Source of the DNA: Candidatus Desantisbacteria bacterium CG1_02_49_89
GTDB lineage: Bacteria > Desantisbacteria > UBA1551
Length of the DNA stretch: 23,639 nt
Reading direction: 5' to 3'
Assembly (NCBI GenBank): GCA_001871075.1
Contig: MNUP01000101.1
Span: 1 to 23,639 of the forward strand
Made by a program: the position numbers and the translations under genes
Notes under the pieces: generated by a model
What the model was told of the DNA's origin: nothing
What the model saw: the letters and a program-made list of their open reading frames with translations, nothing else
Databases searched by the model: none
In this document: positions 2,427-20,742 of the stretch, in pieces
Position numbering within the stretch: the first letter of the stretch is position 1
Layout of the letters: each line of letters opens with the position of its first letter

Positions 2427-4867
2427 AGCGTGAGCCATTTGCTGGTATTCAGGCCTCTTATAGTAATCCGCGTGATTTTCTCTGCTGAGGAAATCGTTAT
2501 TTCCTTTTTTTCGCCGGGCAGGAGGAAAAGATAATTGTCCGAATACTGTGCGCCATCAGCATCCGCCGAGACCTTTATCGCCGGCGCGAAGGTATCTGCT
2601 TTCAGGATCAGCTTAACGCAGCCGGAACCCGGCTTCACCTCAGCCTCCAGTTCAGCCCGTTTCAGGCTGAGGTTCCCAAGTTTTTCGAAGAACAGGAAGT
2701 TCCTGAAAACCAGTTCCTTGCCCCTGACAAGGTCAACCACAAGCACCCGGGTTTTAGGGTCATCAACGGTTATGCCTCTGCTGAAGATAAGCTTGTTTGA
2801 ATTAGCCGGGCATTGAGCGGAAACTTCGCTTCTGTAGTACTCGGTCCCGCTGAAATCAAGCAATCTCAGGACAAGCCTGCCTTTGAACGGGACAAGCTCG
2901 TCATTTATAAGGTTTACCTTTACCTTGCCGCTCTCCAGCACAGGGCTCACAATTACTGGCGAGAACGCCCTTTTTGCCGAGAAATAACAGAGCTTTGGCC
3001 TATAGTAATAATCCACAAACGCCCAGGATATTACCGGCCAGCAGTCGTTAAGCTGCCAAAACAGTATCCCCGACGTGATAAATTTCCTCCTGCGCCAGTG
3101 CTCTATCGAAAATTTCGAGCCTTCCGCCCAGTTCACCTGGGAGTAATAAACGAAATCTTCGAACCCCGCGGGCTTAAAACCCAACACTTCCTCAACGCCG
3201 AACCGTATCCAGTCAAGCGGCTTGTCGTAGGCCTTTTCATGCGCGAGTATTGACTTGCCGGCCAGGTCCCAGTCTTCTTTCGGGGCGAATTTCGCGACCG
3301 TTTCTATGTCCGGGAATGACTGGTATCCTGTTTCGCTCAGGAACCTGCCTTTAATGTCCCCGAACTTCCTCCAGTCCCCGCCGCCCCAGCCCTCATAGGA
3401 ATGGAAATCCCCATTCTTCTGCGACATGTAAATAAATTCATCAGGTGAGTAAGGCGAGGAGGGAACGTACGGGCGGGTCGGGTCATGAAGGCGGCATATC
3501 TCCGGGAGGATCCTGTAAAAGAGCGCCTCCCCGTAATACCTTTTTACCTGCCTGCCTTCCTGGCTCACGTAATACCTGGACGATTCGTTCTCGTTGTTGC
3601 CCGACCAGATGACGACCGAAGGGTGGTTGCGCAGCCTTTTGACCTGGAACACCGCTTCTTTTGAAAAAGAATCGTTGAACCATTCCAGGTGGTCAGGCAC
3701 TTCCTCGCACCCGGACATGAAATCCTGCCAGACCATTATGCCAAGCTCGTCGCAGGTATCGTAAAATTCCTCGTCCTCGTATATCCCGCCCCCCCATATC
3801 CTTGCCATGTTCATGTTCGCCTCGGGCATCATTGAGAGGAGCCTGCGGTATCTTTCTTTTGTCACCCTTGTCAGGAACGAATCGGCGGGGATCCAGTTCA
3901 TGCCCTTGCAGTATACCGGGATGCCGTTGATCCTGAATATGAAACCCCTGCCCTCTTTGTCTTTTTCCTGGGCGATCTCTATGGTCCTTAGCCCGAACTT
4001 CACTGACCTTTGGTCCAGCATTATATCCTTATACTTCATGCTTACTTTCACTTCATAAAGGTGCGGGTCCCCGTATCCGTGCGGGAACCAGAGCTTTGGG
4101 TTCCTGATCTCAAACTCCGCCCTGATCAGGTTTGTGCCGTCGATCATGTGATGCCTGACGGTCTTTTTGCATTTCGTCCCCTTGATCTCGAAGCTTACGG
4201 CCACGTCGTCTTTCATCAGGGAATCAGCCTCGACCTGGACCTTTATCCTTGCTTTTTTTCCCGACACTTCAAGCTGCTTGACGTATACGAAATCGAATTT
4301 CGCGTAGTTATAACCCAGCAGGCGCACGCCCTTCCACAGGCCTGATGCCGGGAACCTGGGGCCCCAGTCCCACCCGAAGCTGTACTGCGCCTTCCTTCCG
4401 TAACCGCGTATTGTGCAGAAAGGCCCGTTCATTATCACGCCGTGCTTCTTCTCCAGCTCTGAAAGAGCGCGGGCCGGCGACTTAAACCTTAACTCAAGGG
4501 AATTTTCCTCTTTCAGGAGCCCGTTGACGTCAAAGACATACGGCCTGAACATGTTATCGGCTGAGCCCAGCATGTGGCCGTTAAGGAAGATGTCCGCGAA
4601 GGTATCAATGCCCTCAAAAACAAGCGCTGTTTTTTTCTTATCTACCGTCTCTTTGCTGACAACGAATTTCTTCGTGTAGACCCAGTCTTTTTCCTCAACC
4701 CACTTCAGCTTGGATTCGTTGTCCGAGTAAAAAGGGTCCGGAATAATTTTGTTCGCCATAAGGTCGGTGTAAACGGTCCCGGGAACTTCTGCCGGGGCAG
4801 GATCCTTCAGGACCTCCCCGTTTTCGTCCTTGAAAAACCACCCGTCGTTCAGCAGTATGTTGTCCAT
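2423..4867 (-). CDS. beta-mannosidase, GH2
   Basis: 814-residue glycoside hydrolase family 2 protein of the beta-mannosidase subgroup, which removes terminal beta-D-mannose from manno-oligosaccharides or N-glycan cores. The order is an N-terminal jelly-roll sugar-binding domain (about 1-190, with VPGTVYTDLMANKIIPDPFY and the FGWDWGPRFPASGLWKGVRL block typical of beta-mannosidases), an immunoglobulin-like domain (about 195-300), the TIM barrel (about 300-600) and C-terminal beta domains. The acid/base is E426 in IWSGNNENE and the nucleophile is E512 in FLSETGYQSFP; ARIWGGGIYEDEEFYD precedes them. No signal peptide is seen, so it is probably cytoplasmic. GGAG lies 5 bases before the ATG. The TAG stop is supplied by a hairpin repeat. 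Beta-mannosidase is favoured over beta-galactosidase because of the WDWGP and GNNENE blocks. Confidence 0.93.
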   Translation of the reverse strand: MDNILLNDGWFFKDENGEVLKDPAPAEVPGTVYTDLMANKIIPDPFYSDNESKLKWVEEKDWVYTKKFVVSKETVDKKKTALVFEGIDTFADIFLNGHMLGSADNMFRPYVFDVNGLLKEENSLELRFKSPARALSELEKKHGVIMNGPFCTIRGYGRKAQYSFGWDWGPRFPASGLWKGVRLLGYNYAKFDFVYVKQLEVSGKKARIKVQVEADSLMKDDVAVSFEIKGTKCKKTVRHHMIDGTNLIRAEFEIRNPKLWFPHGYGDPHLYEVKVSMKYKDIMLDQRSVKFGLRTIEIAQEKDKEGRGFIFRINGIPVYCKGMNWIPADSFLTRVTKERYRRLLSMMPEANMNMARIWGGGIYEDEEFYDTCDELGIMVWQDFMSGCEEVPDHLEWFNDSFSKEAVFQVKRLRNHPSVVIWSGNNENESSRYYVSQEGRQVKRYYGEALFYRILPEICRLHDPTRPYVPSSPYSPDEFIYMSQKNGDFHSYEGWGGGDWRKFGDIKGRFLSETGYQSFPDIETVAKFAPKEDWDLAGKSILAHEKAYDKPLDWIRFGVEEVLGFKPAGFEDFVYYSQVNWAEGSKFSIEHWRRRKFITSGILFWQLNDCWPVISWAFVDYYYRPKLCYFSAKRAFSPVIVSPVLESGKVKVNLINDELVPFKGRLVLRLLDFSGTEYYRSEVSAQCPANSNKLIFSRGITVDDPKTRVLVVDLVRGKELVFRNFLFFEKLGNLSLKRAELEAEVKPGSGCVKLILKADTFAPAIKVSADADGAQYSDNYLFLLPGEKKEITISSAEKITRITIRGLNTSKWLTL

Positions 4868-6029: not shown

Positions 6030-6054
6030 TATCAAACCTGAAGGTTTGAGTTAC
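6030..6054. repeat. half of a 48-bp dumbbell element
   Basis: ATATCAAACCT-GA-AGGTTTGAGTTAC, identical to the right half of the full element at 15579-15626. Confidence 0.88.
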
Positions 6055-10509: not shown

Positions 10510-10557
10510 GTAACTCAAAACTTTAGTTTTGATATCAAGGCTAAAGCCTTGAGTTAC
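10510..10557. repeat. 48-bp dumbbell element with two hairpins, overlapping the folK 3' end
   Basis: Outer arms GTAACTCA and TGAGTTAC, a central TGATATCA palindrome, left stem AAACT/AGTTT around TT and right stem AGGCT/AGCCT around AA. The full copy at 15579-15626 has exactly the same length, arms and centre but different stems that still pair. The last five codons and the stop of folK lie within it. Confidence 0.9.
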
Positions 10558-11044
10558 ACCTGTGTTGACCTGTGTTAATTCGTGGTTCCAATTTTTTCAG
10601 CAGTTCTTTTATAGTTTTTTTAAGGACCGGGTGCGTGACGCCGGGGGCTATCTCGGCAAGTGGCTTGAGCACGAACAGCCGCCTGTGCATCTCCGGATGC
10701 GGAATTCTAAGGCGGTTTGTTTCAACCGCTTTATCCCCGTAAAGCAAAATGTCTATGTCGATCTTTCTCGGCCCCCATTTTATCTTTTGCGGCTTTCTTC
10801 CGAGCTTTTTTTCTATGCCTTTCAGTATCAGGAACAGCTGCGTTGGCGCCAGAACGGTTTCTGCCAAGACTGCCGCGTTTATGAATTTCGGCTGGTCTTT
10901 GTACCCCCATGGCTCTGTCTCATATAGCTTTGACATCTTCTTTATATTGATGCCTTTTGTCTTCTGCATTACGGCGGCAGCACCGAGAACGTTCTGCCTT
11001 CTGTTCCCGAGATTTGACCCGATCGCAAGGTAGACTGTTTTCAT
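10541..11044 (-). CDS. folK: 2-amino-4-hydroxy-6-hydroxymethyldihydropteridine pyrophosphokinase
   Basis: 167-residue HPPK, which transfers pyrophosphate from ATP to hydroxymethyl-dihydropterin in folate synthesis. Seen: YLAIGSNLGNRRQN at the N-terminus, SKLYETEPWGYKDQPKFINAA, the metal-binding block WGPRKIDIDILLYGD (both aspartates present) and the IPHPEMHRRLFVLKPLAEIAP block. AGGAAATTAAC precedes the ATG, 9 bases after the GH5-like stop, so the two genes are probably co-transcribed. The C-terminal tail after about residue 153 (INTGQHRCNSRL) matches nothing in the family and is translated from a TGTGTT-type repeat and from the 48-bp dumbbell element, which also supplies the stop. The functional core is complete, so activity is expected. 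Confidence 0.95.
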   Translation of the reverse strand: MKTVYLAIGSNLGNRRQNVLGAAAVMQKTKGINIKKMSKLYETEPWGYKDQPKFINAAVLAETVLAPTQLFLILKGIEKKLGRKPQKIKWGPRKIDIDILLYGDKAVETNRLRIPHPEMHRRLFVLKPLAEIAPGVTHPVLKKTIKELLKKLEPRINTGQHRCNSRL

Positions 11045-11053
11045 GTTAATTTC

Positions 11054-12015
11054 CTAAAACTCATTGAATATTTCATGCCCCGGGCGCAGGCTGCCGTCCG
11101 CCTCTATGAACGCGAGGTTACCCGGCGGCCCATAATAGCCGAATTCCGGGCGGTGGGCGTCAGCAATAAGGCTGTGATGCAGAAGGTATACAAGCCATCC
11201 GATATTACGTTTTTTTAGCTCACCGAGAGTGTACCTGATTATTTCCACGCGCCTTCGGTCGTCAAGCGCTCCCCAGCAGGTCTCGGTAGCCAGAAGCAGT
11301 TTCTTTGCTTCCGCGGCAAATCCCGTATAGACATCCAGCGATCTTTCATAAATCGCCTTTTCGTGATGCGTCTGCTCATTCTCGGTCCAGTACGGGTGGA
11401 TGCTTAAAATATCGCTTATAGGCTCTATCTGCTTTATGCCGCCCAGGCCGTGCCCCGGGTGTATACCTACCGTGATCGGCGCTGTCGCATTGAGTTTTTT
11501 ACAAATCCCGTATATCCCTTCAAGCCAGGCGTATTCCGCTTTGACAATCTCGGGAATTTCCTCAGTCGGGCAGGAATATGAAAAAGGCTCGTTACACAGG
11601 TCCCAGGCGAATATCCTGCGGTCTGAAGAATGTCCGCCGACAACCGCTTCCAGGTACGGCAGGAACTGGTCGCTTTTTTGCACCCAGCTGACCCCATGCA
11701 GGAAATGGTCTATATACATCCCGCCGTAATCCAGGACACTGTCGTGCCAGCGGTTGAAAAGCACCGGCATAACGGCAAGCCCGTGTTTATCCGCTATTTT
11801 CAAGGCGGCTTCAAAATTATCCGAAAAGCGCTTCGCGCCGCGGTTGAAAGAATCCCAGGAAAGCCAAAGCCTTATAGCGTTCATTCCGGGAAAATATTTT
11901 TCCCCAGGCCGAGCTCTCTGCCTATGGCCTTCGCGTCGAATTTCTGCCACAGCTCAAACCCGCTGGTCCCGTAACTCGGCTGGTAGTTGAACCCCTTTAT
12001 TTTTGAACAATCCAT
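11054..12015 (-). CDS. GH5-like (cellulase-family) glycosidase interrupted by one frameshift
   Basis: A well-placed ATG at 12015 (AGGAG 6 bases ahead) opens MDCSKIKGFNYQPSYG..., which ends at a TGA after about 44 codons. The next frame continues from there as ...KYFPGMNAIRLWLSWDSF to the stop at 11054. One extra A in the run of five A after GGGG (plus-strand 11897-11905) would join the two halves into about 320 residues. Catalytic candidates in the joined numbering are the acid/base near E143 in FAWDLCNEPFS and the nucleophile near E245 in LLATETCWG; HPYW near 207 and NAIRLW near 46 fit a GH5-type TIM barrel. Beta-linked plant polysaccharide oligomers are plausible substrates. No signal peptide is seen. 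The shift lies in a homopolymer, so an assembly error is as likely as a broken gene. folK follows 9 bases downstream. Confidence 0.8.
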
Positions 12016-12111
12016 ATTCTTCTCCTGAACGTAAAAACTATTTAACCACAGGTTTCCGCCACAATAATTGGCGGACCCGCCAGTCTTTTAGGCGGGAACA
12101 CTCCTTAATAT

Positions 12112-12195
12112 AACAGGGAATTTATGGGATTTAAAAAGCTAAATTATGGCAGTTTAAATTCCCTTTGAATCCCTGTTAAAAGCTTTTTACAGGGA
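12112..12195. repeat. nested inverted repeats with a TCCCTGT palindrome
   Basis: AACAGGGA (12112) pairs with TCCCTGTT (12170-12177), and inside it GGGAATTTA pairs with TAAATTCCC (12155-12163). TCCCTGTTAAAAGCT / AGCTTTTTACAGGGA at 12170-12195 is a near-perfect palindrome with the same arms as the elements at 6851 and 12270. Confidence 0.75.
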
Positions 12196-12209
12196 ACCCT
12201 CCACCAAGA

Positions 12210-12239
12210 TTGGCGGGCAGGCTTAAGAGAACTTAAAAA
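12210..12239. repeat. 30-bp dispersed repeat, copy 2
   Basis: Reverse complement of 6088-6117 with one mismatch (TTGGCGGGCAGGCTTAAG then AGAACTTAAAAA). Confidence 0.85.
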
Positions 12240-12269
12240 CACGATTTCCACGAAAGCACTCCGCCCCGA

Positions 12270-12307
12270 TCCCTGTAGCCCCGATAAATCGGGGCTTAAC
12301 ACAGGGA
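12270..12307. repeat. TCCCTGT...ACAGGGA hairpin element, copy 2
   Basis: Arms TCCCTGT and ACAGGGA, inner stem AGCCCCGAT/ATCGGGGCT around AA, and a TAAC spacer on the right. In reverse orientation it aligns with 6851-6889 in arms and spacer while the stem bases are exchanged in pairs. Confidence 0.88.
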
Positions 12308-12405
12308 CCTACGAGTCAGAGCAAAGTTAATGACTCTACGGTCGGGGCGAGACTTCGCCCACCTTAAAGGATGGGCGAGGAAAGCACGAAAACACACATT
12401 TTGCC

Positions 12406-12432
12406 ACTGAGTTCACTGAATTCACTGAGATT
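12406..12432. repeat. 9-bp tandem array, unit ACTGARTTC
   Basis: ACTGAGTTC, ACTGAATTC, ACTGAGATT: three 9-bp units. A related CTCAGTGAG/CTCAGTGCC pair lies near 15633. Confidence 0.85.
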
Positions 12433-12440
12433 TTTACTAT

Positions 12441-12476
12441 GTAAACTCTGTAAACTTTGTAAACTATGTAAACTGT
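12441..12476. repeat. 9-bp tandem array, unit GTAAACTNT
   Basis: GTAAACTCT, GTAAACTTT, GTAAACTAT, GTAAACTGT: four units that are identical except at position 8, which carries C, T, A and G in turn. Confidence 0.95.
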
Positions 12477-12480
12477 ATTG

Positions 12481-12512
12481 AACCCTGAAACCTTTAAACC
12501 ATTAAACCTTTA
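12481..12512. repeat. 8-bp tandem array, unit AACCNTNA
   Basis: AACCCTGA, AACCTTTA, AACCATTA, AACCTTTA: four 8-bp units just behind the CPBP stop codon. Confidence 0.9.
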
Positions 12513-12526
12513 ATCAAACACTCTTC

Positions 12527-13399
12527 TCATACTTCAGCCGGCTTGCGGTCTGCCAGAAATATCACCAGGTTTACCGCCGCAAGCGCTATGAAACCTGCAA
12601 GGCCCGTCATGCCGGTTAAAAGGTCATTGCCGCCGCTTATCACTATAATTGCCAGCCCTGCCGTGCCGTTCAGGGTCCCGTGCAGAATCGAGGCGGCAAT
12701 AACGGATCTTGACTTTATCCTTATATAACTGAATACGGGGGCGAGCAGCACGCACCACACTATCATCATTAGAGCGCCGGCGTAAGGATGCTGGGGGTAA
12801 TTGTGGCCAAGTATTATTATCGGCATATGCCATATCCCCCAGATAAGGCCTATAAGAAAAGAAGACTTCCAAAAACCCATGGGCAGCAGCTCCCTGAAAA
12901 GAAATCCTCTCCATCCTATCTCTTCGCCGAAACCCGCAACCGCGTTAACCGTAAATCCCGCAATAAGGCCCTGGATCAGGCCGATCCAAAAATAATGGAT
13001 AGGCAGTTTCGCGATCCCCTCCTGCATCTTCTGGAACTGCTCCGGTGTAACCATGCCGCTTAACCTTTCAACCATCCCCTCCATTCCGGGGGTAAACTTT
13101 ATCCCGGGGAAAAGCAGCGCGATGCCCATAACGGCTATGGCGGTCGCCGGCATGATGAACCAGGCAACCAGGAACCAGCGGTTGAACTTGAACGAAATAC
13201 CCAGAGCTTCTTTCATCGGCTCCCTGTAAACAACCTTTTGCAGGATTATCACAACCGCCATGGGAACGAACATAAATCCCGTTGCGACGATCATTGCCGG
13301 TTTCGTGTTCCATTTCCCACCCGACAGGGTGAAGATCAGTATCAACAGCCACGAAAACAATATTGTCAGCCCGATAAACGTCTTTGCCTTCTTTGTCAT
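12527..13399 (-). CDS. CPBP-family (CAAX-like, Abi) intramembrane metalloprotease
   Basis: 290-residue multi-spanning membrane protein with about seven or eight hydrophobic segments (for example 8-25, 36-53, 75-97, 137-155, 181-200, 208-225, 250-280). The motifs of the CPBP family are intact: EEIGWRGFL with E159, E160 and R164; a histidine in IWGIWHMP (H191); and HxxxN in ILHGTLN (H240, N244). Eukaryotic CAAX proteases cut prenylated proteins; bacterial CPBP members act in bacteriocin self-immunity, peptide processing or unknown roles, and nothing nearby identifies a substrate. AAGGAAG lies before the ATG, preceded by a GATTACAGTGATTA repeat. Gaps of 191 and 511 bases to the neighbours suggest its own transcript. 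Confidence 0.9.
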   Translation of the reverse strand: MTKKAKTFIGLTILFSWLLILIFTLSGGKWNTKPAMIVATGFMFVPMAVVIILQKVVYREPMKEALGISFKFNRWFLVAWFIMPATAIAVMGIALLFPGIKFTPGMEGMVERLSGMVTPEQFQKMQEGIAKLPIHYFWIGLIQGLIAGFTVNAVAGFGEEIGWRGFLFRELLPMGFWKSSFLIGLIWGIWHMPIIILGHNYPQHPYAGALMMIVWCVLLAPVFSYIRIKSRSVIAASILHGTLNGTAGLAIIVISGGNDLLTGMTGLAGFIALAAVNLVIFLADRKPAEV

Positions 13400-13414
13400 C
13401 TATTTCTTCCTTTT

Positions 13415-13457
13415 GAATGATTACAGTGATTATCGCAGACTGATGATTACGGTGATA
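13415..13457. repeat. GATTACAGTGATTA repeats before the CPBP ribosome-binding site
   Basis: TGATTACAGTGATTATCGC then AGACTGATGATTACGGTGATATAA: two copies of the repeat seen before GH51, GH2 and the flavin reductase. Confidence 0.8.
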
Positions 13458-13472
13458 TAACTGGTGAAACCG

Positions 13473-13528
13473 GTCCGCCCATTTCAAAAAATGGGCGAGA
13501 TCTCGCCCCGATGTCCATCGGGGCGGAC
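13473..13528. repeat. 56-bp GC-rich dumbbell element
   Basis: Fully symmetric design: closing arms GTCC (13473-13476) and GGAC (13525-13528); left hairpin GCCCATTT-CAAA-AAATGGGC; perfect core palindrome GAGATCTC (13497-13504); right hairpin GCCCCGAT-GTCC-ATCGGGGC. Relatives occur at 12344, 15656, 18998 and 23507. Confidence 0.93.
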
Positions 13529-13560
13529 ATAACTGACCAAACAGACTAAAAAGTTTTTGG

Positions 13561-13590
13561 CGATGAACGATGCACGATGAACGATGCACG
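13561..13590. repeat. 7-bp tandem array CGATGAA/CGATGCA at the GH127 stop
   Basis: CGATGAA, CGATGCA, CGATGAA, CGATGCA then CG; the GH127 stop codon TAA follows immediately on the gene strand. The same units, in reverse, form the array before coaE (23446-23473). Confidence 0.92.
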
Positions 13591-15477
13591 TTACTCTTTA
13601 TGGAACGGTATCCACACCTGCATCTGCGATTCGCCGCGGTTCGCCCAGGCGTAATACGGTATGAATTTAGCTTCCGCTTTTTTCCTGGAGCCTGCTTTTC
13701 TTTCGCCTTTAGGGAGGTAAAGCGGTTTTATCTTTTTCCAGTCCGCCGGATAACTGACCCTGCCTTTTACAAGAATGATCCCGCCCAGCAGGTCTTTTTC
13801 AAAGCCGCACGAGAGCTTCGCGGATCCAAGCTCTATGTCAGGCACCGGGATCCCCGGATTATCCGTGCTTTCAACGCAGTAGACTACAGGACCCCTTTGT
13901 ATAGCAACCGCCCCTCTTGCAGAATCAAGCCTGGGGTGCGCCTCAATAAGAACGGCGGGCATTTCCAGGTCCAGGGTTACGCGATCGCCTTTTTTCCAGG
14001 TCCGGTTAAGGTTCAGGTATGAAGAAGGCCTGGCAGGCTTGCTGATTTTTTTATTGTTTATTGACACGGACGCCTTGCGGCACCAGCCCGGGATCCTGAG
14101 GAACAAAGAAAATTTCTTTTCCTGCTGCAAGCTAACGCTTATTTCTATCCTGCCGTCCCACGGAAAGGCGGTATTCTGCGCGAGCCTGACCTGCGCGCCG
14201 TCTGAAAGGCGGAAGCCGGCAGCTGACTCCCCGTAGAAATGCACCCATATCCCTTCCCTGCTGGTAGTATAGAAATAACCCGGCAGAGAGGCGAACATCC
14301 TCTGGACGTTGGGAGGGCAGCAGGTGCAGCCGTGCCATTCCAAACGTTCCTCTGAAACATGAGGCAGGTCTATATTTTTATCAAGCGATGCGAGCGGATT
14401 GGTATAGAAATATTTCACCCCGTCAAGCGATACTCCTGAAAGGAACCCGTTGTAAAGCACCCTTTCCGCGACATCAGCGAAACGGGCTTCCCCGGTCACG
14501 CAGAGCATCCTCCAGTTCCACATAAGGTTTGCGATCGCCGCGCACGTCTCGGCGTAGGCGCGCAGGTTCGGCAGCTCGTACGCCTGGCCGAAAGATTCCC
14601 ACACGTGGCGGGAACCCACGCCGCCCGTAATGAACATCTTGCGCATTGTAACGTCCTGCCACAGGGAATCAAGCGCCGCCCTGACCTGTTCGTCCCCTGT
14701 CTCGGCAACATAATCCGCGGCCCCGCAGCACAGGTAGCATGCCATCACCGAATGGCCTGAAGACGTAGGCCTGCGCGGTTCCATCTCCCTGTATCCGGGA
14801 AATTCATAGTTATCAAGAAGCTTCTTCGCGTATTCCAGGTATTCCTTTTTTCTCGTGGTCCTGTAAAGCTCCACCATTGCCATTTCAAGTTCAGGATGGT
14901 CCCTGTACATCTTTATTTCTTTATCCGGCCCAACATTTTCAACCCAGAAATCAGCCAGTTTCACGGCAACGTCAAAAAGATCTCTCTTTCCCGTTGCCCT
15001 GTAATGGGCGATCGCTGCCTGGATAAGGTGGCCTGAGCAGTAATATTCGTGGTTAAGCCCTCCGCCTTTCAGGCGTTCCGCAAGATGGGGCCCTGTGAAA
15101 TATGAATTAAGGTATCCGCTTGGCTCCTGGGCTCCGGCTATTGCTTCAACGGCCTTGCCTATCGCGTCAGAGATCTCGCGTGAAGGGCTTGTTTGCAGGA
15201 CAAATGACGCGGCTTCGATCCATTTATACAAATCGGAATCTGTGAAAAGCGGCCCCCTGCGCTCCGCCTGCTTTTTCCCTGAAGCTATAAGGAAATTGTC
15301 CGTTACCCCGTTCTCTTCAAGGAGCTTGAACAGCTTCATTATGCTCGCGTTCCTATTCGCGTCCAGGCGCGGTTTCCAGAAACCGCCCAGCTTCACCGCG
15401 TTGACCGGAATGGTCTTCAGTTTTGCGTTCGGGCTGTTGCTTGTGTCGATAACCCCGGCATCTTTCCAGTTCTCCAT
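13591..15477 (-). CDS. GH127 beta-L-arabinofuranosidase-like glycosidase
   Basis: 628 residues, the usual length for glycoside hydrolase family 127 (formerly DUF1680), whose characterised member HypBA1 removes beta-L-arabinofuranose from hydroxyproline-linked arabino-oligosaccharides of extensin. The N-terminal VKLGGFWKPRLDANRN and AGAQEPSGYLNSYF, GGLNHEYYCSGHLIQAAIAHYRATG (143-166), FITGGVGSRHVWESFGQAYELPN and YAETCAAIANLMW are family blocks of the (alpha/alpha)6 barrel. The zinc-thiolate site is intact: E310 and C312 in ETC, and C386-C387 in WHGCTCCPPN, where C386 corresponds to the nucleophilic cysteine. A beta-sandwich follows from about 430. No signal peptide is seen. AAGGGAG precedes the ATG. 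With the GH51 enzyme it gives the cell both alpha- and beta-arabinofuranosidase capacity, though the two genes are 11 kb apart. Confidence 0.93.
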   Translation of the reverse strand: MENWKDAGVIDTSNSPNAKLKTIPVNAVKLGGFWKPRLDANRNASIMKLFKLLEENGVTDNFLIASGKKQAERRGPLFTDSDLYKWIEAASFVLQTSPSREISDAIGKAVEAIAGAQEPSGYLNSYFTGPHLAERLKGGGLNHEYYCSGHLIQAAIAHYRATGKRDLFDVAVKLADFWVENVGPDKEIKMYRDHPELEMAMVELYRTTRKKEYLEYAKKLLDNYEFPGYREMEPRRPTSSGHSVMACYLCCGAADYVAETGDEQVRAALDSLWQDVTMRKMFITGGVGSRHVWESFGQAYELPNLRAYAETCAAIANLMWNWRMLCVTGEARFADVAERVLYNGFLSGVSLDGVKYFYTNPLASLDKNIDLPHVSEERLEWHGCTCCPPNVQRMFASLPGYFYTTSREGIWVHFYGESAAGFRLSDGAQVRLAQNTAFPWDGRIEISVSLQQEKKFSLFLRIPGWCRKASVSINNKKISKPARPSSYLNLNRTWKKGDRVTLDLEMPAVLIEAHPRLDSARGAVAIQRGPVVYCVESTDNPGIPVPDIELGSAKLSCGFEKDLLGGIILVKGRVSYPADWKKIKPLYLPKGERKAGSRKKAEAKFIPYYAWANRGESQMQVWIPFHKE

Positions 15478-15578
15478 ATATCTCCCTTTTATTTTTGATC
15501 AGAGCGATATAAAATTATCATAAGTCATAAGGTTTAAAAGCATATCAACGTGTCAGAACAAAAACAAGGAATATTATT

Positions 15579-15626
15579 GTAACTCAGGGCTTTAGCCCTG
15601 ATATCAAACCTGAAGGTTTGAGTTAC
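15579..15626. repeat. 48-bp dumbbell element, second full copy
   Basis: Arms GTAACTCA and TGAGTTAC, centre TGATATCA, left stem GGGCT/AGCCC around TT and right stem AACCT/AGGTT around GA. Same length and frame as 10510-10557 with paired changes in both stems. Confidence 0.92.
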
Positions 15627-15718: not shown

Positions 15719-15743
15719 TCCGTGCCTCAGTGTCTCCGTGGTG
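15719..15743. repeat. CCGTGCCTCAGTGTCTCCGTGG repeat entering queF
   Basis: A copy of the CTCCGTGCCT/CTCCGTGGT family. On the gene strand it encodes the last residues and stop of queF. Confidence 0.75.
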
Positions 15744-16152
15744 ATCTTTTCGTCTGTATGATCAGTAATTTCGGGAACCTGTAGCCTTTTTTACAGTGGC
15801 GCGCCGTAATGACCGTTTTGACGTTGCCGCGCGGGTTGAAATCCCCGGTAACCTCCACCCACCTCGGGCCCAGGGCTTTTACCAGGTCGTCAAGTATCCT
15901 GTTTACCGCTTCCTCGTGAGAAATATAAACGTTACGGAAACCGTTAATATACAGCTTGATCGATCTCAGCTCGACGATCTTCGTGTCCGGAATATACCTT
16001 ACTTTTATCGCGGCGAAATCCGGGTACCCGCTCCTGGGGCACAGGCAGGTAAATTCCGGCAGAGTTGTTTCTATCAGGTAGTCTCTTTTTTTGTTTTTAT
16101 TCGGCCACGTTTCCAATTTTGCTTTCTTTATCTCTTTTTCCCCGTATTTCAT
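15727..16152 (-). CDS. queF: NADPH-dependent 7-cyano-7-deazaguanine reductase (preQ0 nitrile reductase)
   Basis: 141-residue unimodular QueF, which reduces the nitrile of preQ0 to the amine preQ1 for queuosine in tRNA. The active-site cysteine is C38 in [13 protein letters not shown] and the conserved aspartate is D45 in the same block. The family motif normally written E(S/L)K(S/A)xK(L/Y)(Y/F/W) appears as [14 protein letters not shown] (61-74), with arginine in place of the first lysine. [10 protein letters not shown] and the [11 protein letters not shown] block follow. The start at 16152 is chosen because GGAGG lies 4 bases ahead; longer versions would read into a 7-bp repeat array. The C-terminal tail TKRSPRRH is encoded by a CCGTGG-type repeat and is not part of the fold. 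No other queuosine genes are in the window. Confidence 0.93.
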
Positions 16153-16167
16153 TATGCCTCCGCGGCA

Positions 16168-16342
16168 CATCGAACGTCGTGAGTCTTTCGTCGTGCGTTT
16201 CACGTCGTACGTCGAGCGTCTTACGTCGTGCGTTTCACGTCGAATGTCGTACGTCTTGCGTCGTGCGTATAAGCCTTTAAAACGTACGACTTACGACGTA
16301 TGACGATATTTACGTACGACTTACGACATACGGCTTACGACG
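16168..16342. repeat. long inverted pair of 7-bp arrays, unit CGTCNNN
   Basis: Fifteen 7-bp units run without a break from 16168 to 16272 (CATCGAA, CGTCGTG, AGTCTTT, CGTCGTG, CGTTTCA, CGTCGTA, CGTCGAG, CGTCTTA, and so on). After a short spacer the complementary units follow (ACGTACG, ACTTACG, ACGTATG, ACGTACG, ACTTACG, ACATACG, GCTTACG). The TAA stop of the next gene lies in the unit GCTTACG. Confidence 0.93.
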
Positions 16343-16841: not shown

Positions 16842-18138
16842 TTCTAGAGGCCGATTCCCCCGCAAGCCTGCCTGTGGAAAATGCCATCTGCAGGTTATAC
16901 CCGCCTGTGGGCGCGTCCAGGTCCACGACCTCGCCCGCGAAATACAGGCCCTTCACTATCTTCGATTCCATCGTGCGGTTATCTATTTCCTCAAGCGCAA
17001 TCCCCCCGCTTGTTATTATCGCCTCTTCTATGGGCCGTGTTTTGCTTATTTCAAACGGCAGGGCTTTCAGCAGTTCCGCGAGATACCGCCTTTCTTTTCT
17101 CGTGATAGTGTTCGCGGGCTTGTCTTCAGGGATGAAGGAAAATCTCACGATAACGGGTATAAGGCTTTTCGGCAGGAGGTCGTCAAGGGAATTGCCGAAG
17201 GTCTTGTTGCTGTATTTAATGAGATCCCTCCGCAGCCTCTGGTCCAGTTTCTCCAGGTCCAGGGCGGGTTTCAGGTCTATTATCAGGACAACGCTGCTCC
17301 TTTCAACAGAATCCTTTTTATCTCCCCCTTCAGAAAAGGGGGATAAAGGGGGATTTTTGTTCGCAAGCCACTTGCCTATTTTTTTGCTCATCGAAAGGAT
17401 TATGGGCCCCGAAACCCCGAAATGCGTGAAAAGCATATCCCCGAATTCTTCCGCTATCTTCTTGTAGCTGCATTTAGCGGTAACCCTGACGTTTTCCAGG
17501 GAAAGCCCCTGCAATTCCTTCGGCCATTCCTCTTTTGTCTCGAGCGGCACAAGCGCCGGCCTGAGTTCAGTTATCGTGTGGCCGTGCTTTTTCGCGATCT
17601 TGTAACCGTCTCCTGTGGAGCCGGTGCCCGGATACGACACCCCCCCCGTGCATAGTATCACGCTGCTGCACCCTATGGCTTCGTCCGCCTTTGTTTTTAC
17701 CGCGCTGACCCTGCCTTTGCGCACCACCAGGTCTTTCACCCTGGTTTCATACAGCAGGTTGACCCTCCCGCTCTTCATATAATTGAGCAGCGCCTTATGG
17801 ATATCCTCGGATCTGTCGGAAGCCGGAAAAACCCTGCCTCCCCTTTCGACCTTTGACTTTACGCCCAGCCCTTCAAAGAACTTTTTCAGGTCCTCGTTGA
17901 AAAAATTGAAAAACGCGGGATATAAAAAATTCCCTTTATTGCCGAATTCCCTGATGAACGCGTCAAGCTCCGCGGAGTTGGTGAAGTTGCACCTGTCTTT
18001 TCCCGTAATAAGGAGCTTTTTCCCCGGTGACTCGGTCTTTTCAAGCAGGAAAGCCTCTGCTCCCCGCTCAGCCGCCCTTCCGGCGGCCATCATTCCGGCC
18101 GCACCTCCGCCCACTACGATTACCTTTGCTTGTTTCAT
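16834..18138 (-). CDS. BaiN/HI0933-family NAD(P)/FAD-dependent oxidoreductase
   Basis: About 434-residue flavoprotein of the HI0933/YhiN/BaiN family. Seen: the FAD-binding VIVVGGGAAGMMAAGRAAERG near the N-terminus, KLLITGKDRCNFTNSA, FFEGLGVKSKVERGGRVFPASD, VILCTGGVSYPGTGSTGDGY, FTHFGVSGPIILSMS, and the C-terminal GLYFAGEVVDLDAPTGGYNLQMAFSTGRLAG. BaiN acts in bile-acid dehydroxylation in gut clostridia, but most members have no known substrate. The ATG at 18138 is preferred: it has CGGA ahead, while the ATG at 18150 lies in a CGTC-type array. An insertion at 17320-17358, in the loop before VLIIDLKPALDLE, is a copy of a CCCCCTTT intergenic repeat read in frame as KNPPLSPFSEGGD. The last residues and stop come from a 7-bp array. 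Confidence 0.92.
   Translation of the reverse strand: MKQAKVIVVGGGAAGMMAAGRAAERGAEAFLLEKTESPGKKLLITGKDRCNFTNSAELDAFIREFGNKGNFLYPAFFNFFNEDLKKFFEGLGVKSKVERGGRVFPASDRSEDIHKALLNYMKSGRVNLLYETRVKDLVVRKGRVSAVKTKADEAIGCSSVILCTGGVSYPGTGSTGDGYKIAKKHGHTITELRPALVPLETKEEWPKELQGLSLENVRVTAKCSYKKIAEEFGDMLFTHFGVSGPIILSMSKKIGKWLANKNPPLSPFSEGGDKKDSVERSSVVLIIDLKPALDLEKLDQRLRRDLIKYSNKTFGNSLDDLLPKSLIPVIVRFSFIPEDKPANTITRKERRYLAELLKALPFEISKTRPIEEAIITSGGIALEEIDNRTMESKIVKGLYFAGEVVDLDAPTGGYNLQMAFSTGRLAGESASRNS
17320..17358 (-). repeat. CCCCCTTT hairpin repeat inside the flavoprotein gene, copy 2
   Basis: On the gene strand AAATCCCCCTTTATCCCCC then TTTTCTGAAGGGGGAGAT, matching 456-491 except at a few bases. It keeps the frame open and adds about 13 residues rich in proline and glycine. 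Confidence 0.85.
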
Positions 18139-18144
18139 ATATTC

Positions 18145-18247
18145 CGTCATACGTCGGACGTCATACGTCGTGCGTAAATGCCGTCATACGTCGTAAGTCG
18201 TACGTTTTAAAGATTTATACGTATGACGTAAGACGTACGACGTTCGA
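18145..18247. repeat. inverted pair of 7-bp arrays, unit CGTCNNN
   Basis: CGTCATA, CGTCGGA, CGTCATA, CGTCGTG, CGTAAATGC, CGTCATA, CGTCGTA, AGTCGTA, CGTTTTA, then after a spacer CGTATGA, CGTAAGA, CGTACGA, CGTTCGA. It runs from the flavoprotein start to the base next to the radical SAM stop codon. Confidence 0.92.
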
Positions 18248-19615
18248 CTATTTTTTATTCAGATCACGCGCGAGATCTTTAAGCTGCTGTAATTTGCCCC
18301 AGTCTTTCACCCCATAAAGCGGGAAAATGGAATTGTTGTGCAGGAGCGGGTCGTTGAATTCGAATTTGTTATCCTGCCAGTCCCGCGTGCCGGGTATGGG
18401 CGAGTATTCGGAAAGGAACACCTTCACGCCCAGGTCCGAGGCGAATATTATTGAATCCCTGACCTCGTCAAGGTCCTGCCCCGGCATTCCCATCATCACA
18501 TACGCGCCTGTCTCTCCCTGTTTATAGCCTGCCCCGTACAGATCTTTAACTGCTTTTTCAAATTCTTTGTTTGTTACCTTCGCGCCTGTTTCTTTCTGTC
18601 TTTTTTCGCTTGAGGTCTCAAGGCTGAGGCGCGGCTGTATAAAATCCGCGCGCCGCATCAGTTCCGCGATGCCTTCTGAAACGTATCTCGCGTGGAGCCC
18701 GTTTGGGGTATGCAGGCCGCAGTTTATCTTCCTTTTTAACAGTTCCTTTAAGATCACGGCTATATGGTTCCCGGCATTGAATAAAAGCGCATCGTCATAA
18801 AAAGCGAAATCCTTTATGCCTTTCTTAAAGAAAAATTCTATTTCATTTGCGACGCTTAACGGCTCGCGCTGGCTGAAATTCTTTGCCAGCAGTCCGGCAG
18901 CGCAGTAGGTGCACCTGAAAGGGCAGCCCCAGGAGGTCCTGATCGCGGCGTATTCCGGTTCCGGGTAAAGGTCGTAGGCGGGAGTGAGAGATTGCCCGCC
19001 CCGATATCCATCGGGGCGAGGTCTCGCCCCGGCTGAAACCGGGGCGGAAAGATTGTCCCGAAGGGACCCCTTTGGGGAAAGATTGAAATCCTTACCTGCA
19101 AGCTTAAATACTTTTTCTGCTATCTTAAAGATATCTCCGCCGGGGAAGACTTCGGCTCCGGAGTATTTCCGCGCGTGCTCTTCGCATATCGTGGCGTAAA
19201 CGCCTCCCAGCAAAACCGGAACACCCCTGAATTTCCGCTTTAAAACCTCTATTGCCTTGAACGCGCCAGGGTACCAGTATGTCATTCCGGAGCTTACAAG
19301 CACTATATCGGGATCTTTGCCTTCAAGTTCATTTTCAAAGAGCCGGACCGGTATACCGTACCTTTTATATTTGCGCGGGATATGCCTGAGCGCCAATGGT
19401 TTTTCGATCTCTTCCCTGTAATACTGCCCGCATCCAAAATCTTCATCTTTCCTGAAATCCAGGCCCGGATGTTTACGGTCAAGGCAATCTATCAGGCTGA
19501 CCTTGCAGCCGGCTTTCCTGAGCGCGTCAGCGATATATAAAAGCCCCAGCGGTTTTGCCCACAGGTCAAAGGCGGCAAAATCATAGATCCATGGATTGAT
19601 AAGCAAAACATTCAT
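18248..19615 (-). CDS. B12-binding-domain radical SAM protein
   Basis: 455 residues. The N-terminal half (1-175) looks like a cobalamin-binding Rossmann domain (MNVLLINPWIYDFAAFD..., KPLGLLYIADALRKAG, DIVLVSSGMTYWYPG, VPVLLGGVYATI). The radical SAM core carries the 4Fe-4S motif C231-x3-C235-x2-C238 in TSWGCPFRCTYCAAGLL, followed by FAFYDDALLFN, QPRLSLETSSEKRQKETG and GAYVMMGMPGQDLDEV. Members make methylations, ring changes or other radical modifications; the substrate here is unknown. Between the two domains (about residues 182-209) lies a GC-rich dumbbell repeat and two small hairpins read in frame, giving a glycine/proline/arginine-rich linker. The ribosome-binding site is weak (GGATTAAG). 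The stop codon TAG directly borders a CGTC-type array. Confidence 0.9.
   Translation of the reverse strand: MNVLLINPWIYDFAAFDLWAKPLGLLYIADALRKAGCKVSLIDCLDRKHPGLDFRKDEDFGCGQYYREEIEKPLALRHIPRKYKRYGIPVRLFENELEGKDPDIVLVSSGMTYWYPGAFKAIEVLKRKFRGVPVLLGGVYATICEEHARKYSGAEVFPGGDIFKIAEKVFKLAGKDFNLSPKGSLRDNLSAPVSAGARPRPDGYRGGQSLTPAYDLYPEPEYAAIRTSWGCPFRCTYCAAGLLAKNFSQREPLSVANEIEFFFKKGIKDFAFYDDALLFNAGNHIAVILKELLKRKINCGLHTPNGLHARYVSEGIAELMRRADFIQPRLSLETSSEKRQKETGAKVTNKEFEKAVKDLYGAGYKQGETGAYVMMGMPGQDLDEVRDSIIFASDLGVKVFLSEYSPIPGTRDWQDNKFEFNDPLLHNNSIFPLYGVKDWGKLQQLKDLARDLNKK
18994..19077 (-). repeat. GC-rich dumbbell element in frame inside the radical SAM gene
   Basis: GCCCCGAT-ATCC-ATCGGGGC (18998-19017), core GAGGTCTC (19018-19025), GCCCCGG-CTGAAA-CCGGGGC (19026-19045), then TCCC-GAA-GGGA and CCCC-TTT-GGGG (19056-19077). 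About 84 bases, a multiple of three, with the reading frame preserved. Confidence 0.9.
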
Positions 19616-20110: not shown

Positions 20111-20206
20111 AGTTTATAAAGTTTACAAAGTTTATAGAGTTTATAAAGTCTTATGATTTAAACAAACTATGTAAACTGTGTAAACTCTGTCAACTCTGTA
20201 AACTAT
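20111..20206. repeat. inverted pair of 9-bp arrays, AGTTTAYAR and GTAAACTNT
   Basis: Left arm: AGTTTATAA, AGTTTACAA, AGTTTATAG, AGTTTATAA (20111-20146). Right arm: GTAAACTGT, GTAAACTCT, GTCAACTCT, GTAAACTAT (20171-20206). The arms are complementary and separated by 24 bases, so a long imperfect hairpin can form. It ends 2 bases before the stop of the hypothetical gene. Confidence 0.93.
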
Positions 20207-20208
20207 TT

Positions 20209-20742
20209 TTAGGCAAACCATTTCCTGAATTTTTCCTCAAACCACCTTATATCCGAATCGGCTGATTTCGCGGCAAGCATCGCCGCGTATATCATTATGG
20301 AAAACTGCCAGCCTTCCGCGTGCCCCGCGACCAGGCCTGTCTGCGTGTCTTCCTCTTTTTCAAGCTCGTCTCTAAAGTGCGCTTTTGCCTTTTCAAGAGA
20401 ACCTTCAAAAACATCCACGTTGCTGGTCTGGTTCTTGAACCTCATTGAAGGGAACGAGATGCCCCTGATCATGAAAAACGTTCTCAGCGCCTCGTCGCTG
20501 GCTTTCAGGCCTTCCTCGAACTCAAAGCCTTCGAAGAAAGGCATGTTCTCCGGCAGTATTATCGCGGGTTTATGCATGTTGACCTTTCCCCTGCGCACAA
20601 CCGTGTCGCCCGCGTTCACAAGGGATTCGGCAAGGAATATGTAGGGGATCCACGTCATTTTTGACGGCGCGAGGTAAAGGACCCTTGACCTCAGTACCTG
20701 CGTTGATTCAACCGCTTTTTCCCACTGTTCCTCGAGTTCCAT
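20209..20742 (-). CDS. hypothetical protein, soluble, no family recognised
   Basis: 177 residues with no signal peptide, membrane segment or familiar catalytic motif. The first half is mixed alpha/beta with RSRVLYLAPSKMTWIPYIFL, NAGDTVVRRGKVNMHKPAI and ILPENMPFFEGFEFEEG; the middle (VDVFEGSLEKAKAHFRDE, then LEKEED) looks helical and charged, and the C-terminus has a hydrophobic helix (QFSIMIYAAMLAAKSA) followed by WFEEKFRKWF. The composition and codon pattern look like a real gene. Its ATG is 12 bases after the stop of the membrane protein gene, with GGTGGAG overlapping the spacer, so the two are probably translated together and may act together at the membrane. No function is proposed. Confidence 0.8.
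   Translation of the reverse strand: MELEEQWEKAVESTQVLRSRVLYLAPSKMTWIPYIFLAESLVNAGDTVVRRGKVNMHKPAIILPENMPFFEGFEFEEGLKASDEALRTFFMIRGISFPSMRFKNQTSNVDVFEGSLEKAKAHFRDELEKEEDTQTGLVAGHAEGWQFSIMIYAAMLAAKSADSDIRWFEEKFRKWFA

Follow-up and report, generated by a model that had tools for sequence, protein, structure and literature searches.

GTAA-tagged REP hairpins in facing, always-unlike pairs, and the RAYT genes beside them, in a Desantisbacteria genome

Background

Repetitive extragenic palindromes (REPs) belong to the commonest mobile-looking sequences of bacteria, and two questions about them are still open: how REP-associated tyrosine transposases (RAYTs) choose their sites, and why unlike REPs pair. 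Here we describe a family of 48-bp elements, each made of two facing REP hairpins, found in a stretch of 23,639 nucleotides from Candidatus Desantisbacteria bacterium CG1_02_49_89. This whole stretch, called the window below, is part of contig C30 (MNUP01000101.1) of a 2.48-Mb genome in 150 contigs. An earlier note, made from the letters of the window, had proposed a REP-like element with exchanged but still-paired stems, to be checked by a genome-wide search, a count of compensating pairs, a search for a Y1 transposase and a comparison of empty sites in sister genomes.

GTAG-tagged REPs and the bacterial interspersed mosaic elements (BIMEs) built from them are short perfect palindromes with stems of 6-9 bp, a one-sided tetranucleotide tag, subfamilies whose stems differ by complementary changes and RAYT genes flanked by the repeat; their dimers favour heterotypic partners (Di Nocera et al. 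2013, PMC3733652; Nunvar et al. 2010, PMC2817692). The present family resembles them in these respects, and its 2-nt loops fit TY, but its tag is GTAA and unlike pairing is absolute in the dyads examined. Degeneracy of the GTAG tag has been reported at positions 2 and 3 only (PMC3733652), and the tag is given as GT[AG]G in PMC6006769. In E. coli BIMEs, too, two subtypes (Y and Z REPs) alternate in opposite orientation instead of pairing like with like. Those subtypes are distinguished by a bulge and by loop length, ours by three middle base pairs, and some of our variants have long loops.

The REP doublets forming hairpins (REPINs) of Pseudomonas fluorescens (Bertels and Rainey 2011, PMC3116915) share with our family the inverted REP doublet as unit, the association with RAYTs and singlets resembling decayed doublets. 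In REPINs, however, like pairs with like, and one long hairpin with a spacer is predicted (PMC3116915), whereas the dyads of our family join unlike partners across a spacer of mostly 2-8 nt and fold into two hairpins. The group 3 REPtrons of Marinomonas and Stenotrophomonas (Corneloup et al. 2021, PMC8266576) likewise have a perfect short palindrome in which stem identity is largely free and pairing is needed; the Marinomonas REP also has the TTNA loop, essential there, with a free third position. In these REPtrons the tag is the guide for the cleavage site (PMC8266576). Their tag is GTAG, with C|T or C|A cleavage; ours is GTAA, and our RAYTs carry His at the position of E. coli Gln95.

The REP/RAYT type of system is already known; what is new is the GTAA tag and the pairing of always-unlike hairpins. 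We explain the elements as REP hairpins in facing dyads of BIME or REPIN type, forming a RAYT-dependent repeat family (probability about 0.88), very probably copied by a small dedicated transposase. The family offers a clean natural test of both open questions: a clade with altered base 4 of the guide tag and an altered residue at a known tag-contacting position, and an exceptionless rule in 80 dyads from four genomes, by which facing pairs are always unlike and tandem neighbours always of the same class. The family also carries REP/RAYT biology into a bacterial phylum with poor sampling, two genomes of which were examined.

A large family of compensating hairpins

Two 48-bp copies with common arms, centre and length but different stems had been described at 10510-10557 and 15579-15626, and this description is exact. 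Each copy consists of two 23-nt units in facing orientation, with the architecture Y-GTAA-C-TCA-N1N2N3-CT-TN-AG-N3'N2'N1'-TGA, where TN is the 2-nt loop. When the whole genome was searched with a pattern in which arms, apex and centre were fixed, N1-N3 were free and pairing was not required, 97 half-elements matched with at most three mismatches (reversed pattern: 0), and N1-N3 are paired in essentially all of them. A covariance model built from 20 distinct units matched at 154 places, and about 145 of these matches are strong (31 bits or more). The genome contains 19 facing dyads, including the two in the window; the reversed-pattern control gave none. Nearly all copies carry the tag GTAA, with a few ATAA and GTAG variants. 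The other genome of the phylum examined, G001, holds 30 facing dyads and at least 167 copies, many in head-to-tail arrays. Of 29 more genomes, taken from other parts of the domain, two gave one marginal match each and the others none.

Pairing was evaluated on 29 distinct half-elements from four genomes and close relatives. In this set 99.1% of cells are paired, and both sides have changed in 41 cells, where shuffles give 13.0 (none of 500 reached 41); its arms were fixed by the search pattern and the informative positions are N1-N3 only. A set from a mismatch-tolerant search gave the same compensatory result. The hairpins are thus perfect or near-perfect and maintained by compensatory change, as is characteristic of REPs, with some G-U pairs among the half-element stems. 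The earlier idea of a stem free to vary holds for three of the eight stem base pairs, to which variation is confined and which nevertheless stay paired. It does not hold for the foot TCA/TGA and the apical CT/AG, which are fixed, nor for the two halves of a dyad relative to each other, as they always differ.

These fixed and free positions are close to rules published for one RAYT, that of Marinomonas. Systematic evolution of ligands by exponential enrichment yielded for this enzyme a T-T-N-A loop whose third position is free and whose outer T and A pair; mismatches did harm, and any base was accepted at stem positions 2 and 3 (PMC8266576).

Long-loop versions of the REP were also observed, with a loop of about 28-60 nt containing CCTCCTTAAAGATTGGCGG (L011:3641-3691, 3720-3768 and 4466-4513; L013:1777; L022:2216; L024:1166; L028:8726-8815). 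Their stems vary likewise. Each lies opposite a short-loop half, and some apparent half-copies are therefore full dyads with one loop expanded. At five sites (L013:5492, L019:12174, L028:7458, L029:4638, L030:1112) a composite element consists of CATCGGGGCGG fused to ATAACTCAGGGC, with the first tag base changed from G to A, which suggests that the REP and a GGGGCG hairpin repeat were copied jointly.

RAYT genes embedded in the repeat

The window's genome has ten Y1-transposase matches. Two of them are adjacent RAYTs of 160 aa on contig C23 (1740-2222 and 3766-4248), 86% identical to each other. Both contain the HuH motif and the catalytic-Tyr region, and their nearest solved structure is 4ER8, 'TnpArep'. 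One of these genes has six complete and one imperfect REP unit head-to-tail directly upstream, and a further unit abuts its stop codon; the other adjoins 60-bp REP-pair repeats. Two RAYTs embedded in arrays of the very GTAAC hairpin, together with the copy number and the compensating pairs given above, bear out the REP/BIME-like reading of the earlier note and answer three of the checks that it had proposed. RAYTs flanked by their own repeat occur also at four loci of other genomes (L034, L035, L114, L115).

The presence of a classical IS200 TnpA (on contig C83) and of other Y1 proteins raises the alternative that the elements are transposon ends of IS200/IS605 type, or miniature inverted-repeat transposable elements of another transposase family. 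We regard this as most improbable. Among the Y1 genes examined, GTAAC hairpins lie beside the two RAYTs only, and none was found beside the other Y1 loci. Against the NCBIfam model of the REP-associated tyrosine transposase (NF047646, REP_Tyr_transpos; cut-off 80) the two proteins score 94.7 and 99.7 bits, and against the IS200/IS605 model (NF033573; cut-off 55) 32.4 and 28.4 bits. Moreover, the elements measure 23 or 48 bp, contain no coding sequence and show no obvious target duplication.

The following mechanism, which comparison supports well in its general outline, would account for a RAYT-dependent family. Each half would fold into an 8-bp hairpin while the DNA is single-stranded, as lagging-strand template or as transposition intermediate. 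A RAYT encoded on C23 would recognise the YGTAA tag, the foot and the CT-TN-AG apex and cut beside the hairpin through its HuH/Tyr centre, and this cutting would lead to dyads being copied into intergenic sites. The three middle pairs would drift by compensatory change because the enzyme reads tag, shape and apex but not the mid-stem. The GTAA tag in place of GTAG is linked to a single RAYT clade.

Some RAYT loci show peculiarities of their own. The L115 RAYT apparently ends in REP-encoded residues (AKALSYR). An in-frame stop at the conserved Trp makes the GTAA RAYT of L034 (Nitrospinota) a pseudogene, yet its genome retains at least 14 GTAA-type dyads. A RAYT-like gene of about 188 aa (L009, G000:C111:7597-7926 with flanks) has repeated 7-bp hairpins on both sides, CCTCAACTTGTTGAGG upstream and CCCCAACAAGTTGGGG and CCCGAACAAGTTCGGG downstream, with compensating stem changes and without the GTAG tag; it is possibly a second unusual REPtron.

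The GTAA tag and its RAYT clade

To place the tag, 80 RAYT relatives were gathered from named genomes of many phyla. GTAG is the tag at nearly all relatives that are flanked by hairpins of the same architecture. The two nearest relatives, from Nitrospinota (L034) and Deltaproteobacteria (L035), are accompanied by GTAACTCA units, as are the further close relatives L114 and L115. In the tree, one branch (81/81; 86% of bootstraps) sets the six GTAA RAYTs apart; the next branch beside them (L036) has GTAG. Members of the clade come from the window's genome, Nitrospinota and Deltaproteobacteria-type genomes. The genome of L114 encodes also a GTAG RAYT, L125, with GTAG units. As it pairs each RAYT with its own tag, tag and enzyme are linked within a single genome. 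The string GTAA was not found in the REP and tyrosine-transposase literature searched.

Gln95 of E. coli TnpAREP has been listed with residues that contact or recognise the GTAG tag (PMC8266576; PMC6006769). Position 110 of the C23 RAYTs aligns with Gln95 of 4ER8. His occupies this position in six of six GTAA RAYTs (in the L034 pseudogene the stop comes just before it), and Gln in 44 of the 46 GTAG-labelled relatives with a cleanly read motif. That His suffices for GTAA was rejected, GTAG RAYTs L065 and L120 also having it. Judged from the tree, the changes of tag and residue count as one joint event, not as repeated proof. According to the published guide rule, C|T is selected by A3G4 and C|A by T2G4 (PMC8266576); the same rule predicts that GTAA would give T|T or T|A cleavage instead.

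An automatic 'GTAA' label at L094 was treated as noise, for it marks a single hairpin without the CTTNAG apex. In 90% of 193 distinct GTAG-tagged hairpins from the RAYT loci L034-L127 a pyrimidine precedes the tag, as it mostly does for GTAA, too; the true tag seems to be YGTAR.

Facing hairpins are always unlike

All 80 of 80 facing dyads of the GTAA family in four genomes (G000, G001, G031, G032) join unlike stems. Their halves differ at two or three of the three variable pairs, and one-step pairs are absent. Among 44 distinct dyads no same-stem dyad was observed, while 10.0 are expected from random pairing within genomes (0 of 5000 permutations as low); the test is weaker when dyads are collapsed to unordered stem pairs (381 of 5000 permutations). 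Head-to-tail neighbours behave the other way: 30 of 30 distinct ones are of the same stem class and 18 of 30 are identical, where class means N2=G or not, a definition made after the data had been seen, and where tandem duplication favours like neighbours anyway.

Folding as DNA offers a possible reason. For 11 natural dyads, two hairpins (-10 to -14 kcal/mol) compare with one long hairpin (-3 to -13 kcal/mol); most favour two hairpins and AAA-stem dyads are near a tie. Same-stem versions were computed to form a single hairpin of -20 to -28 kcal/mol. With equal stems, therefore, both recognition hairpins would be buried in one long palindrome. We infer that unlike halves are required: annealed to each other, equal stems would give a 23-bp hairpin in which both recognition hairpins are hidden and which is easily deleted. 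For the favoured pairing of unlike REPs, Di Nocera et al. (2013) saw 'no obvious explanation' and suggested protection from clearance (PMC3733652).

The rule may have a simpler origin, namely a founder effect in which a single heterotypic dyad was copied often and its stems drifted. Many dyads are indeed near-identical: 13 of 19 in the window's genome are AAC+GGG, and its family always keeps N2=A in one half and N2=G in the other. On the other hand, the four genomes in which the rule holds come from at least three groups and use different stem pairs (AAC+GGG, AAC+GGA, AAA+AGG, ACC+AGG, GCC+GGG and CCC+GGG across the four genomes), and one-step dyads are missing though the pool and the head-to-tail neighbours abound in one-step stem pairs. 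A founder effect as the whole cause appears possible but the less likely course.

Combining these observations, one may conceive of a natural switch of RAYT specificity, in which the change of the Gln95 equivalent to His and of tag base 4 from G to A would, through guide pairing, direct cleavage to T|T or T|A in place of C|T or C|A, the dyads being obligatorily heterotypic since the enzyme would need two separately folding hairpins. We offer this full scheme only tentatively and find it rather doubtful as it stands.

Presence and absence in sister genomes

Mobility was assessed on Deltaproteobacterium G032, which has the same REP family, and on its sister genomes. The G032 RAYT region is syntenic in sister genomes, and in G273 the RAYT lies at the same place. 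In most comparable sisters the RAYT interval is short or holds few REPs at most. In a second G032 region, one GTAA dyad and two GTAG dyads are present and are absent in those sisters that could be read across, seven sister genomes having been tried. The RAYT locus and several dyads are therefore lineage-specific at syntenic sites, which shows gain or loss, not the chemistry of insertion. The comparison of empty sites proposed in the earlier note has in this way succeeded as regards presence and absence, with junctions that are not base-exact. No shared direct repeat indicative of target duplication was seen at the flanks of the listed elements, where no base-exact empty site was available to compare.

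Several points count against a RAYT-dependent REP family as we describe it. The mobility comparison concerns G032 and not the window's genome. No base-exact empty site was found among the G032 sisters in either region; these are 70-92% identical, and their intergenic DNA is diverged or has other repeats. In G001 no RAYT of the GTAA clade was detected, in an assembly that is 87% complete. The textbook tag is absent: the family lacks GTAG or GT[AG]G at the hairpin foot, by which the GTAG family is defined, and it is therefore filed as a variant, a GTAA-tagged REPtron outside that family. A shift from C to T beside the tag was not seen in the flanks, and the guide prediction gains no support from them. 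The composition at position -1 (T 0.53 and C 0.37 for GTAG; T 0.50-0.55 and C 0.29-0.38 for GTAA) neither favours nor contradicts a changed cleavage site. Finally, heterotypy could stem in part from one heterotypic founder.

Host function has to be considered as well. Hairpins serving as transcription terminators or mRNA-stabilising structures under host selection, with mobility merely historical, would agree with the position of the window copies, all of which lie between genes on the same strand, with stable folding as RNA (-18 to -29 kcal/mol for the dyads tested), with the G-U pairs and with the folK gene terminating inside a copy. Such a function would nevertheless leave unexplained the fixed one-sided YGTAA tag, a tag which tracks the RAYT clade across phyla. 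The head-to-tail arrays directly around RAYT genes, the lineage-specific presence in sister genomes and sites without a terminator T-run, as read from the sequence, also speak against it, and we consider it improbable.

Elements of the window and their surroundings

The dyad at 10510-10557 reads GTAACTCAAAACTTTAGTTTTGA-TA-TCAAGGCTAAAGCCTTGAGTTAC, with stems AAA and AGG and the centre TGATATCA. Its plus-strand half (10510-10532) has an 'A-class' stem, GTAAC + TCAAAACT-TT-AGTTTTGA, and its minus-strand half (10535-10557) a 'G-class' stem, GTAAC + TCAAGGCT-TT-AGCCTTGA. It lies between panC (start 10481, minus strand) and folK (minus strand). The last codons and the stop of the folK reading frame come from the dyad (10541-10557; residues CNSRL, stop TAG inside the hairpin), as expected if the element had landed at the end of the gene.

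The dyad at 15579-15626 reads GTAACTCAGGGCTTTAGCCCTGA-TA-TCAAACCTGAAGGTTTGAGTTAC, with stems GGG and AAC; here the plus-strand half (15579-15601) is 'G-class', GTAAC + TCAGGGCT-TT-AGCCCTGA, and the minus-strand half (15604-15626) 'A-class', GTAAC + TCAAACCT-TC-AGGTTTGA. Its neighbours are a GH127 gene (13591-15477) and a QueF-like gene (15727-16203), both on the minus strand. The third pair of genes bordering a window copy encodes a histidine-phosphatase and a flavin-reductase.

A right half-copy noted near 6030-6054 is real and is placed at 6032-6054 on the minus strand (GTAACTCAAACCTTCAGGTTTGA), a single REP whose partner was lost. Four solo hairpins had been taken for separated halves. One of them, at 2337-2359 on the minus strand (GTAACGCAGGGCTTCAGCCCTGC), is a GTAAC-tagged relative with a GCA foot, scoring 38.0 bits with the covariance model. 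The other three belong to other families: they are GTAG-tagged REPs on the minus strand at 673-693 (GTAGCCACAACCTTTAGGTTG, read from sequence), 768-789 (GTAGCTGCAGGGCTTGCCCTGC) and 2405-2426 (GTAGCCGCAGGGCTTGCCCTGC), with loops and feet unlike those of the GTAAC unit. No Rfam family was found in the window.

A box AACAAGGAATTTTAT stands immediately before a REP dyad or of a GCCCGCCCC element at window position 15566 and at L019:12114, L020:9276, L022:2203, L028:993 and 7398, and L030:1183; it is a possible preferred insertion site. Degenerate intergenic minisatellites, of a 9-bp TGTAAACTC type and a 7-bp ACGTCGT type, occupy 12427-12497, 20111-20218, 16166-16342 and 18137-18248 of the window, and have inverted copies at other window positions.

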